Shown here: positions 20,887 to 26,082 of the stretch, one piece after another | Position numbering within the stretch: position 1 is the first letter of the stretch | How the letters are laid out: every line of letters begins with the position of its first letter | Source: Alcaligenes faecalis | GTDB lineage: Bacteria; Pseudomonadota; Gammaproteobacteria; Burkholderiales; Burkholderiaceae_B | Direction: 5' to 3' | NCBI RefSeq assembly: GCF_002443155.1 | Contig: NZ_CP023667.1 | Location: 3,100,001 to 3,164,000 of the forward strand | DNA length: 64,000 bases | Made by a program: the position numbers and the translations under genes | Notes under the pieces: generated by a model | The model's input: only the letters and a program-made list of their open reading frames with translations | Told to the model about the DNA's origin: nothing | Databases searched by the model: none

Positions 20887-20900
20887 ATCACGACCGTGAT
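20887..20900. promoter_or_regulatory. palindrome ATCACG-AC-CGTGAT upstream of the first XRE gene
   Basis: A perfect 6+6 inverted repeat lies about 50 bases before the first XRE start, in the divergent promoter region. It is a good operator candidate for either neighbour. The second XRE copy does not carry it. Confidence 0.45.
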
Positions 20901-20908
20901 TTTTAATT

Positions 20909-20950
20909 AAAACCATCGTGCTGGCGCTTGCATCAACAATCTGTTGTGTG
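20909..20950 (+). repeat. conserved leader of XRE copy 1
   Basis: AAAACCATCGTGC, then a variable stretch, then AACAATCTGT and GTGTG. The same blocks occur, without gaps, at 21497-21538 before copy 2. The leader ends at the GTG start and carries no ribosome site. Confidence 0.7.
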
Positions 20951-21322
20951 AAACATTTCTCCGAACGCCTTCGCCATGCACGTCAATATCGCGGTCTGTC
21001 TCAGGCTGATTTGGCACGTCTATGCGGATTGAGTCAGAGTGCCATCTCCAACTACGAAAACGGTACTCGTCGAGATGCTCGTGAAATTCTGGAATTGTCC
21101 AGAGCCTTGAATGTCAGCGCTGTGTGGTTGCGCAAAGGTACCGGCACGATGGAATTCACCAAGGATGGCTACACACTGTCCGAACCCCAGGCCGGCCCTC
21201 CGATTGTCTCTTGGCCCTTCCGTCTGTTCTCCGTTGATGAGGTGGTTGCTTTGGCAGATAGCGAACGTGATTTGCTTGATCGCACTTTGCGTCATTTGCT
21301 GGACGGCATGAAAAAGCGCTAG
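20948..21322 (+). CDS. XRE-family HTH regulator, copy 1
   Basis: The product is 124 residues from the GTG at 20948. The helix-turn-helix covers about residues 5-60: SQADLARLCGLSQSAISNYE, then NGTRRDAREILELSRAL. The C-terminal part carries GPPIVSWPF and FSVDEVVAL, shared with copy 2. I chose this GTG because copy 2 starts at the identical place and has a stop just upstream in frame, whereas copy 1 merely happens to be open back to 20918. No ribosome site is visible. It probably binds DNA as a dimer; the target is unknown. Confidence 0.82.
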   Translation: MKHFSERLRHARQYRGLSQADLARLCGLSQSAISNYENGTRRDAREILELSRALNVSAVWLRKGTGTMEFTKDGYTLSEPQAGPPIVSWPFRLFSVDEVVALADSERDLLDRTLRHLLDGMKKR

Positions 21323-21496
21323 CTGCGGCTCCTTTCTCCCACCTTCTGGCCCTGCCACCACGCTTCGCAGTGCTTTGCCAAGTACTTGGCAGCACACTGT
21401 TCAATACCAGGCTGCAACCCCGCCTATCCTAACCCTCTCTCTGGTTTAGCAAGCTGGTTGAGCTGGATAGTTTTATCACATACGGGGTTTTTCTTG

Positions 21497-21538
21497 AAAA
21501 CCATCGTGCAGGGCGTTCCATGAACAATCTGTAGTGTG
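21497..21538 (+). repeat. conserved leader of XRE copy 2
   Basis: Gapless match to 20909-20950, with exactly 39 bases from the first A to the GTG start in both copies. It shows that the duplication included upstream sequence, or that this stretch is a functional operator or leader. Confidence 0.7.
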
Positions 21539-21913
21539 AAACACTTCTCTGATCGTCTCCGCCACGCCCGCCTGCAACGCGGCTTTTCTCAAGCCGAACT
21601 GGCTCGCCTGTGTAACCTTAGCCAAAGCGCCATCTCCAATTACGAGAGTGGCACGCGGCGTGACGCGCGTGAAATTCTGGATCTGGCCAAAGCTCTGAAC
21701 ATCAGCGCCCAATGGCTCAAGAACGGGCTGGGCAATATGGAGCTGAGTGCAGCCCATGCCGCCACCTTGCAAGACTCTGGCGAAGGGCCACCGATTGTGA
21801 CCTGGCCCTTCAACCGCTTTTCCGTGGACGAGATTGTGGCTTTGCCACCCAAAGAGCGTGACCATCTGGATCAAACCATCCGTCATCTGCTCAACGGCAT
21901 GAAAAGAAAATAA
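21536..21913 (+). CDS. XRE-family HTH regulator, copy 2
   Basis: This 125-residue protein is a tandem paralogue of the gene 0.59 kb upstream. It keeps SQAELARLCNLSQSAISNYE and SGTRRDAREILDLAKALN and the C-terminal GPPIVTWPF and FSVDEIVAL, and differs mainly in the linker at about residues 70-85. The start is GTG with no visible ribosome site. About 40 bases of upstream sequence are conserved with copy 1. It is followed by the thiC riboswitch, which looks like a separate transcription unit. Confidence 0.85.
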   Translation: MKHFSDRLRHARLQRGFSQAELARLCNLSQSAISNYESGTRRDAREILDLAKALNISAQWLKNGLGNMELSAAHAATLQDSGEGPPIVTWPFNRFSVDEIVALPPKERDHLDQTIRHLLNGMKRK

Positions 21914-24123: not shown

Positions 24124-24200
24124 GTGCGGGGTTCGTTGCTTCATTTGTAGGAACGCGAGGTTTGTCAGGCAGAAGAGATCGTTGCAGGAGACGCCAGTCA

Positions 24201-24417
24201 AGCCTAGCTTCAGGGTGTCCGGGCTGAGTGTTTGCCGGTGCTGCGCACCGGTGCCCTTGTCAGGAGATAGCTACGGGCGCATCCTGAACTCGCCGGGTAC
24301 TTGGTCCCCCGGACCAAGTACAAGCGTCCGGCTCAAACAGCAGGATGCTTGCATCCCTACGCTATCTCCCGCCCGCGGCAAACCCTCTGAACCGCCCGGA
24401 CACCCTGAAGCTAGGCT
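24201..24417 (-). repeat. structured repeat element, intact copy (217 bases)
   Basis: Perfect 24-base outer arms (24201-24224 and 24394-24417) enclose several nested hairpins: an 11-base stem at 24297-24321 with a 3-base loop (arm GTACTTGGTCC), and CCGGTGC/GCACCGG at 24235-24251. Read on the minus strand, the core matches a second element at 24671-26082, which is split by an insertion sequence. No coding frame is credible. It resembles a non-autonomous or RNA-like palindromic element; I do not recognise a named family. Confidence 0.85.
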
Positions 24418-24500
24418 CAACTGGCTCACAATCGTTTTTTTCTGAACAGTTCAAACTGCATCCTTGAATGGCGTATGGCACTTTCCTAACCTGCGTCGAA

Positions 24501-24670: not shown

Positions 24671-24810
24671 GCCCTTGGGGGCGGTGGGGACCCGGAGGGG
24701 CGATTCAGAGTACTTGCCGCGGGCGGGGGCATGATCCGGGGTGCAAGCACTCTGCTGTTTGAGCGGAACGCTTGTGGTTCGTCCGGGGGACGAACCACCC
24801 CGCGAGGTTC
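24671..24810 (+). repeat. structured repeat element, second copy, left part
   Basis: This holds the left outer arm (24671-24701), the shared core with GCAAGCA, CTGCTGTTTGAGC and CGCTTGT, and an 11-base hairpin at 24774-24798 (arm GTGGTTCGTCC, loop GGG). It stops at GTTC (24807-24810), where the insertion sequence begins. The right part resumes at 25986. Joined, the element would be about 233 bases. Confidence 0.85.
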
Positions 24811-24821
24811 TATGGTTTGGG

Positions 24822-25772
24822 TCAAGCTGTTTTAGGTGATAGTTTGGACGGGTCAAAGGCTTGTCCACTTTTCCACACGGCATATGCAATGCGCAGCAAC
24901 TTACGAGCCAGAATCACAATCGATTCTGTGCCCGCCAGGCCTCGGGCACGATACGCTTCATACAACGGTTTACATGCCGCACTGCGGCAGGCCGACATCG
25001 CTGCCAAATACAGTTGTCGGCGCAGCAAAGTCGGCCCACGCTTGCTGATACGACGACGGCCTCGCTTGGTCCCTGAGTCGTTGGGTCGGGGATCGAGCCC
25101 GCTATACGCGACTAAGGCATCCGCATTGGCAAAGGGAATACGATTGAGCAGTTCGGTCAACAAGGCCGCTGTCTGTTGACCGATGCCACTCACACTACGT
25201 AAACGTTGATATCCCTGTTCGAGCTGCGGGTCGTTCGCAATCAAATGCTGTATTTGTTGATCCATTGAGGCCAGCACAACATCAAATCCATGTTGCAACG
25301 CTTGGGTATCGACACCTGATAGATCCACGTCGGTAAAGGCCTGGCGTAAAGCGCTCTGGTGAGTGATCACTTGAGCGCGACGAGACAACAGTTGACGCAA
25401 CTGTTGTTGCTCGGGGGTGAGCGGTTGCCAAGCTTGCAGGCTGGATTGATGCTCTTGCAGGTAGCGGACAATGACCTCTGCATCAATATTATCGGTCTTG
25501 GCCCGGCTGCCTAAGGCTCGTGCATAGTAAAAGACATCACGCGCGTTCAAGATATAGACCGTCAAGCCATGCAGATAAGCCAACTGGGCCAGTAAGGTGT
25601 GGTAATTGCCCGTTGACTCCATGGCAATTAGCGCGTGTTCTGACACTGTCTTTAACCAACGGGTAATGCCAGTCGCCGTGTTGGCAATGATGCAGGGCCG
25701 TTGGCCCGCTACGCTTATGACCAGCTCAGCCTTGGCAACATCAGCACCGATATAAAGCACAGTCGTTTGCAT
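24822..25772 (-). CDS. IS110-family transposase (DEDD recombinase)
   Basis: From MQTTVLYIGADVAKAEL, with a GGAGG site 7 bases upstream, the product is 316 residues and appears intact. The N-terminal RuvC-like domain shows the acidic residues: GADVAKAE, ALIAMESTGNYH and AKTDNIDAEV. The C-terminal Tnp20 domain has LRSVSGIGQQTAALL, VAYSGLDPRPNDSGTKRG and MSACRSAACKPLYEAYR with the candidate catalytic Ser. IS110 enzymes use an RNA encoded in the element to choose target and donor DNA. An upstream in-frame start (25820) lacks family resemblance. Confidence 0.93.
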   Translation of the reverse strand: MQTTVLYIGADVAKAELVISVAGQRPCIIANTATGITRWLKTVSEHALIAMESTGNYHTLLAQLAYLHGLTVYILNARDVFYYARALGSRAKTDNIDAEVIVRYLQEHQSSLQAWQPLTPEQQQLRQLLSRRAQVITHQSALRQAFTDVDLSGVDTQALQHGFDVVLASMDQQIQHLIANDPQLEQGYQRLRSVSGIGQQTAALLTELLNRIPFANADALVAYSGLDPRPNDSGTKRGRRRISKRGPTLLRRQLYLAAMSACRSAACKPLYEAYRARGLAGTESIVILARKLLRIAYAVWKSGQAFDPSKLSPKTA

Positions 25773-25985
25773 GGGAGCACCTCCAAAGCGCACAATGAGT
25801 AACGTCGGGGTGTACGCCATCCGGCTCGTTGACTTGCGTTCAGATCGGCGGTCGCGGTTCGATGAACGGCGCCGCTCAGTTCCTTATCGACGGTGATGGG
25901 TGGGGCGGGAGAGTTCTCGCGGTGTCGGTCCGGCATTGGCCGATCGTTCAGGATGTCCCTCCACCCCGACAACTTAACCATACAA
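25773..25985 (-). ncRNA. candidate bridge RNA region of the IS110 element
   Basis: The 213 bases between the left end and the recombinase have no gene. On the minus strand GGGTGG...GGGA can pair with TCCC...CCACCC, enclosing an internal loop closed by a TCGGC-CAAT-GCCGG hairpin. One loop side reads CATCCTGAAC (25955-25946), 8/10 identical to the occupied site's left half and 10/10 to the same place in the intact repeat. The other side contains CCGCGAG (25922-25916), complementary to the right half CTCGCGG. This is the expected design of a target-binding loop. Exact RNA ends are unknown. Confidence 0.7.
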
Positions 25986-26082
25986 GTTCAGAGTGCGCCC
26001 GGATGATGACCTCGACAAGGGGACCGGTGCGCAGCACCGGCAAGTGCTCAAGCCCCTCCGGGTCTCCACCGCCCCCAAGGGC
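25986..26082 (+). repeat. structured repeat element, second copy, right part
   Basis: It resumes at GTTC and contains GTGCGCCCG, GACAAGG and ACCGGTGCGCAGCACCGG, all shared with the intact copy. The right outer arm (26052-26082) pairs with 24671-24701 over 31 bases with one mismatch. About 250 further bases to the lipoprotein gene hold only a heptamer repeat and a terminator. Confidence 0.85.

Follow-up and report, generated by a model that had tools for sequence, protein, structure and literature searches.

The window, by which we mean the whole 64,000-nt stretch of DNA analysed here, contains a repeat that is split by an insertion sequence, and the left end of that insertion sequence carries letters that match the split site. 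An earlier note had proposed that an RNA from the left end directs the element to this repeat family. The locus raises two questions: how the element finds its target, and what the target is. With regard to the first, comparison of copies and relatives makes it very probable that the element is an autonomous IS110-group insertion sequence using a bridge RNA.

Ends, core and insertion sites of the element

The genome of origin (G000; 4,075,263 bp in one contig) contains four copies of the element. Comparison of these copies gave the following features.

24807..25986, minus strand: IS110-group insertion sequence, 1,180 bp including one CT core; ends from the four own-genome copies
24822..25772, minus strand: recombinase gene, 316 aa, with Pfam PF01548 and PF02371; aligns with the IS621 and ISCro4 chains over residues 4-314
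24805..24806, minus strand: CT core at the right junction, from junction comparison of copies
25985..25986, minus strand: CT core at the left junction, from junction comparison of copies

The left junction reads ..GAA-CT-TGTATGG and the right junction CCATAGAAC-CT-CGC.. in the four copies. CT comprises the only letters common to both junctions, and the letters flanking it differ. There is no target duplication around this short core, and intact repeat copies show the uninterrupted order. The end of the element, previously placed at 25989, was corrected accordingly, as positions 25987-25989 are target. The subterminal repeats are short (CCATA/TATGG, 5 bp), and the non-coding ends of 214 nt on the left and 15 nt on the right indicate the IS110 group layout, not that of IS1111.

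Both Pfam families in the recombinase scored above their cut-offs, and the protein has the DEDD RuvC-like and C-terminal serine domains typical of the IS110 family. When a 2-residue offset of the chain was allowed for, D11, E52, D94, D97 and S233 aligned opposite D11, E60, D102, D105 and S241 of IS621 (catalytic positions as given in PMC11208158). IS621 and ISCro4 were the only chains matched in a Protein Data Bank search. A protein search scored 7998 candidates, of which 1666 had E <=1e-50; among the best 120, the leading identities were 98% and 87%, followed by values of <=66%. The 98% match is probably the element itself. Within the family, 8/268 genomes encode a recombinase at E <=1e-60, the best outside G000 being 49% identical, and a closer protein (63% identity) was found outside the family in G1302. 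No DNA relative of the element was present in plasmid records, and a protein search of plasmids (1926 records) gave only proteins of <60% identity. We found neither this insertion sequence nor the structured repeat described in the open-licence literature, and the insertion sequence may already have an ISfinder name.

All four own-genome copies (4/4) were inserted at one identical point, in four different repeat copies. In a check set beforehand on other copies of the same insertion sequence, none of the four lay at an unrelated site. Copies L002, L003 and L004 are mutually identical. Against these three the window copy shows 8 differences, none of them before element position 271, and all four therefore have one and the same left end, guides included. 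The target lies around CATCCTGAACTCGCGG, and TGAA-CT-CGC is kept in all four sites. We compared both guides, in loop order, with each target and with dinucleotide shuffles of the left end (n=3000).

Window site: CACTCTGAA-CT-CGCGG; 15/17 guide letters matched, 8/3000 shuffled left ends as good
L002 site: CATCCTGAA-CT-CGCAC; 15/17, 6/3000 shuffles as good
L003 site: CATCCTGAA-CT-CGCCG; 16/17, the best match, 0/3000 shuffles as good
L004 site: CCCTGTGAA-CT-CGCGG; 13/17, the worst match, 744/3000 shuffles as good and on its own no better than chance

At the two sites with right half CTCGCGG (window and L004), the right guide is perfectly complementary.

The left match at the window site, which had been reported as 8/10, was borne out, and its two mismatches are explained by a helix that varies between repeat copies. 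Target letters were counted in alignment columns from 51 of 57 repeat copies (alignment A2). Guide letters one to seven lie in a helix with a varying middle, the third letter being C in 23, T in 21 and G in 7 copies (n=51), and AACT deviates in 1/204 cells. Exact CATCCTGAACT occurs in 16/51 copies and exact TGAACTCGC in 28/51. The 2 mismatches at the window site and the 4 at the L004 site all fall in columns that vary, and the opposite arm of the copy concerned carries the complementary letters. The left match is thus only 8/10 because both mismatch positions lie in the variable repeat helix, where the other arm changes to match. Since both arms agree, it is less likely that the repeats changed after insertion. 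Judged from these letters, the guide spells the commonest form of the repeat, and rarer forms are hit too. The sites also show where mismatches are tolerated in nature, namely at guide positions that fall in the helix of the repeat that varies.

The candidate bridge RNA and its relatives

The left end contains the following features, all on the minus strand.

25773..25986: left non-coding end, 214 nt, with the candidate bridge RNA; can be aligned with those of relatives
25898..25967: target-binding stem with internal loop; minimum-energy fold, stems conserved and loop variable in 18 left ends
25946..25955: left target guide CATCCTGAAC, from guide/target matching in own copies and relatives
25916..25922: right target guide CCGCGAG, from guide/target matching in own copies and relatives
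25879..25885: left donor guide region AAGGAAC (donor left end ATAGAAC), from agreement between the pre-core base and its guide in 22/22 types
25832..25836: right donor guide CAAG with handshake base T (25832), from comparison of the handshake base with target position 7

The letters and coordinates in the earlier note were correct for CATCCTGAAC (25955-25946), CCGCGAG (25922-25916) and GCAAGT (25837-25832), as were the letters of the occupied left half CACTCTGAAC and of the intact repeat CATCCTGAAC. For 25975-25890 the hairpin with an internal loop that it had drawn has the lowest folding energy, but its stability is ordinary compared with shuffles (z -0.40, 70/200 as good). The whole left end is likewise of ordinary RNA stability (z 0.75). 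As neither is more stable than shuffles, folding energy gives no support, and what supports a bridge RNA is comparison. Its transcript is predicted to start near 25970. Rfam covariance models gave no match in the left end.

Recombinase loci were collected for this comparison (n=43): 24 from the family (including the four own copies), 11 from the order, 4 from the class, 3 from the family of G434, and L039 from Xylophilus sp. Leaf220, the sole locus from a protein scan of named genome contigs. L091 (identical in sequence to L039) and L097 (no recognised left end) were dropped, leaving 41 copies of 23 element types. One flank is missing for L039 (left) and L098 (right), so 21 types have both flanks. 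In the alignment of 18 left ends, the stems are conserved and the first loop is variable. We then searched every loop against every target in an identical, free manner, using one copy per type. The 21 own guide/target pairs totalled 288, compared with a mean of 219.5 and a maximum of 252 on permutation (0/100,000 as good). The internal loop in related elements is thus conserved in position and variable in letters (18 left ends), and its letters track the targets (21 types). These results sustain the proposal that the element is directed to this repeat family: its own copies occupy the same repeat point in 4/4 cases, and the loops of relatives track their own targets.

Agreement was not uniform. 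Guides are common to related types, L070 and L074 (2/21) score another type's target above their own, and several others tie. L103, L104, L068 and L107 have a good right match (6-7 of 7) and a poor left match, and the right guide match of L094 is poor. For some elements the free search chose a stretch outside the loop, e.g. L104 and L107 (left) and L092 (right).

In IS621, a base just past the right donor guide pairs, once strands have been exchanged, with position 7 of the target (PMC11208158). This handshake base is T here, and target position 7 is A at 4/4 own sites. Where the left target is known (22 types), the two bases form a Watson-Crick pair in 18/22, a G-U pair in 2/22 (L074 and L107) and no pair in 2/22 (L068 and L103). 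The earlier note had matched GCAAGT with ACTTGT on the donor side. The donor guide stands, but the A of ACTTGT is a target letter, so the sixth pair, formed by the handshake base, would be a contact with the target and not with the donor.

The base that precedes the donor core equals its guide base in 22/22 types with a known donor end; it is C in the window, L039, L106, L107 and L108, A in L094, and T in the rest. When the donor loop was compared with the joined ends, GAAC and CAAG matched, both short. In the window element, L039, L106 and L107 the left donor guide is GAACTG and lacks the CT that follows GAAT in most others, and in our element it does not spell the core CT. The junction predicted from the element ends is CCATAGAAC-CT-TGTATGG. 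Joining the right and left ends creates a possible promoter, TTGACC-17 nt-TATGGT, which matches at 9/12 positions, as does another promoter-like pair within the same 120 bases. A promoter scan of the integrated element found nothing at its ends. A joined-end promoter has been described for IS621 (PMC11208160).

The candidate bridge RNA is compact. In the window element, L039, L106 and L107, the target stem starts 19-20 nt from the element end, a lead too short for a 5' stem-loop. In the other 19 types 24-56 nt precede the target stem, a rough figure since the pattern stops inside the stem-loop in some. The stem-loop before the target stem, a trait of the IS621 consensus that is not known to be required, is thus absent here. 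In a tree of 18 recombinases, the window element, L039, L106, L107 and L068 form one well-supported group (100/99). Because L068 has a longer lead, the short-lead label needs 2 changes, not 1.

Proposed mechanism and alternative explanations

In the proposed cycle, the recombinase would excise the element as a circle, and the joined ends would rebuild a promoter for transcription of the left end. The first loop of the resulting RNA is predicted to pair with both target strands through the left guide CATCCTGAAC and the right guide CCGCGAG, while the second would pair with the element's own joined ends. Strand exchange would then occur at the common CT, helped by handshake pairing with target position 7. 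The element would land in the repeat because its guides spell the invariant AACTC loop and parts of the adjoining helices. The element may be mobile at present, with its RNA transcribed and bound and its recombinase catalytically active.

An alternative explanation is that the recombinase itself reads the shape of the repeat DNA, as a hairpin or cruciform, and that the guide match is a by-product. The target repeats do fold strongly, and palindromes also adjoin some relatives, for example on the left of L069 and L072. However, the insertion point and the guide letters change together across 21 element types, the handshake base follows target position 7, and the right guide is a perfect complement of both CTCGCGG sites. 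We consider recognition of DNA shape very unlikely. Less probable still is that homologous recombination between repeat copies spread the four elements, in which case their common site would say nothing about targeting. All copies do lie in related repeats and three of the elements are identical, but the repeat letters around each insertion are different, target letters by the core among them, and relatives in other genomes occupy unrelated sites that match their guides. We give hardly any credence to a chance match between guides and targets: the 8/3000 shuffles that did as well at the window site and the 744/3000 at the L004 site are set against 0/3000 at the L003 site and 0/100,000 permutations.

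The guided mechanism has already been published for IS621 of E. coli (PMC11208160, PMC11208158), so the insertion sequence is well supported but ordinary in kind, a new member of a known group. As described there, IS621 shares with our element a recombinase with both domains, a left-end RNA with target and donor loops, a CT core, a joined-end promoter, handshake pairing and insertion in a multicopy palindromic repeat (REP). In contrast to IS621, our element has no room for a 5' stem-loop, its left guides lack the second core letter, its target is a ~180-nt structured repeat rather than REP, and the proteins are only ~31% identical. ISCro4 (IS110 group, chain 9t56_A), the second of the two solved-structure matches, was compared by protein sequence over residues 4-314. 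ISEc21, from the seekRNA description of IS110/IS1111 elements, is reported to have an upstream non-coding region with the bottom-strand match before the top-strand match, as here, whereas its reported target lies in IS3-family genes (PMC11187229). ISPpu9, ISPpu10 and ISPa11, likened here by description, are IS110-family elements of other hosts and repeats that are highly selective for multicopy palindromes (PMC1525189). As a natural example of guide-target pairing our element is a clean one, and its candidate bridge RNA is compact, without space for a 5' stem-loop.

The structured target repeat and a second element within it

The repeat and a second element were located as follows.

24671..24806, plus strand (the structured strand): half of the repeat copy split by the insertion sequence; model R1 24696-24866, 70.2 bits
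25987..26082, plus strand: other half of the split copy; model R1 25867-26053, 35.8 bits
24222..24399, minus strand: structured core of an intact copy; model R1 199.7 bits, inverted repeat I3
L036:345-1742 (G000:C1:3641244-3642641), ends approximate: second IS110-family element, IS1111 layout

The structured core is ~180 nt long, the outer arms of the intact copy reach 24193-24425, and the core of the insertion sequence lies in the invariant AACTC loop. BLAST found 34 repeat matches in G000, including the halves of split copies and two self-inverted matches, and matches in 9/10 genomes of the genus. Model R1 gave no match in one genome of the genus, G003. At E <=0.001 it detected the repeat in 69/268 family genomes and 23/43 genera, in a scan with stricter filters and at most 10 candidates scored per genome. 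Rfam at gathering scores found no match in the window, and the 6 matches obtained with E up to 1 in 16 loci did not overlap any repeat copy.

We extracted 57 distinct near-full copies from the collected loci (L005-L066 and L123-L152 among the repeat loci). In A2 (51 copies), 38/54 predicted pairs had changed on both sides. In A4, with 40 copies read on the opposite strand, pairing holds in 98.4% of cells, and 41/58 pairs had changed on both sides; 0/500 shuffles reached any of five measures, and sliding the partners lowered pairing to 32.5-43.4%. The 78 pairs of A3 (48 copies, the strand of A4) comprise 3348 Watson-Crick, 163 G-U, 34 A-C and 198 other cells, such cells counting copies rather than events, so that fewer changes than is apparent may underlie the excess. 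G-U pairs in the repeat helices are tolerated mainly on one strand. The structured strand folds better than its complement in 54/57 genus copies and in 20/22 copies from other genera. As template switching alone should prefer no strand in a perfect palindrome, we read this bias as selection on a single-stranded molecule, either RNA or single-stranded DNA. RNA is favoured because the symmetric UUUGA/GAGUU internal loop with tandem G-A has what we take to be the look of an RNA motif.

The arms of 23 stretches from other genera differ, yet each folds into one long paired structure. The loops are kept in A6 (21 other-genus stretches and L031), and GAGTT, the complement of AACTC at the core of the insertion sequence, is invariant in 22/22 rows. 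By a simple ORF rule, the neighbours of the repeat at 41 loci are convergent in 23, codirectional in 11, divergent in 4 and undetermined in 3. In the own-genus repeat pairs listed, the structured strands point away from each other; in L137, which comes from a different genus, both copies are oriented alike. The Bordetella repeat BRE is also an intergenic multicopy repeat of Betaproteobacteria including Alcaligenaceae, but at 75-91 bp and often in tandem it differs by description from our ~180-nt repeat, to which it might still be related (PMC3110155).

The second element adjoins copy L002, so that one repeat copy holds both elements. It encodes a 342-aa recombinase with the same two Pfam families (PF01548 and PF02371), and its downstream non-coding region and longer subterminal repeats are those of the IS1111 group. 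G000 contains 5 copies, and G005 contains 4 full copies and a partial one. All full copies (n=9; 8 read at both ends, L120 at the right end only) split the apical hairpin at one point. Independent insertions number fewer than 9, as the flanks of L113/L117 and of L119/L121 are nearly the same and the four G005 right flanks are alike; the G005 left flanks of L110 and L118 contain N, beyond which they are not repeat-like. A further G005 copy, at the L012 locus (L166), has different flanks. The downstream region contains GTCCCCC followed by CTTGTCC, a match equalled by 1/3000 shuffles, the CTTGTCC target letters having been chosen after the copies were seen (other copies read TTTGTCC or TTGGTCC). 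In IS1111 elements the top-strand complement is reported to precede the bottom-strand match (PMC11187229). We regard RNA guidance of the second element to the apical hairpin as a candidate mechanism, and the structured repeat appears to have been reached from both branches of the IS110 family.

In our estimate there is an even chance that the repeat belongs to a class of structured nucleic acid not yet described, probably RNA made from one strand. Such a class would have a ~180-nt branched, covarying core, invariant internal loops and copy-specific near-perfect arms, often between convergent genes, and two guided elements would have settled on it independently, at the AACTC loop and the apical hairpin, each reading a part kept constant by selection. 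Widespread, strong in compensatory change and without an Rfam entry, the repeat is a larger prospect than the insertion sequence. Because both an IS110-type and an IS1111-type element land in it, the repeat offers a way to test whether guided elements favour the invariant parts of multicopy repeats.

Alleles without the repeat core, in which one outer arm is kept and the other is missing, were seen at two loci: one in G006 (L159), where we read the ORF as thiC, and the L024 locus of G004 (L171/L172 = G000 and G004). Copying of flanking host DNA by the repeat in inverted form was considered and is not claimed, the core-less alleles suggesting deletion or an odd insertion. For the G004 allele deletion is more likely, because more distant genomes are filled.

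Among the loci of relatives of the insertion sequence, model R1 with E up to 1 gave no match in L068, L069, L070, L072, L074, L076, L078, L081 or L085, so that the insertion sites of these elements may be other sequences than the structured repeat. The left flanks of L069, L070, L072, L076, L078, L081 and L085 (genus g2) adjoin another palindrome, GGTCCGGAG..CTCCGGAC, present in a close form in L070. It continues as TGCCCC.TTGTCATC or a variant. This palindrome is faintly like part of the structured repeat and is not matched by model R1. Elsewhere in the window, two neighbouring related genes (20887-21905), ~70% alike in DNA, encode small proteins that resemble helix-turn-helix regulators.
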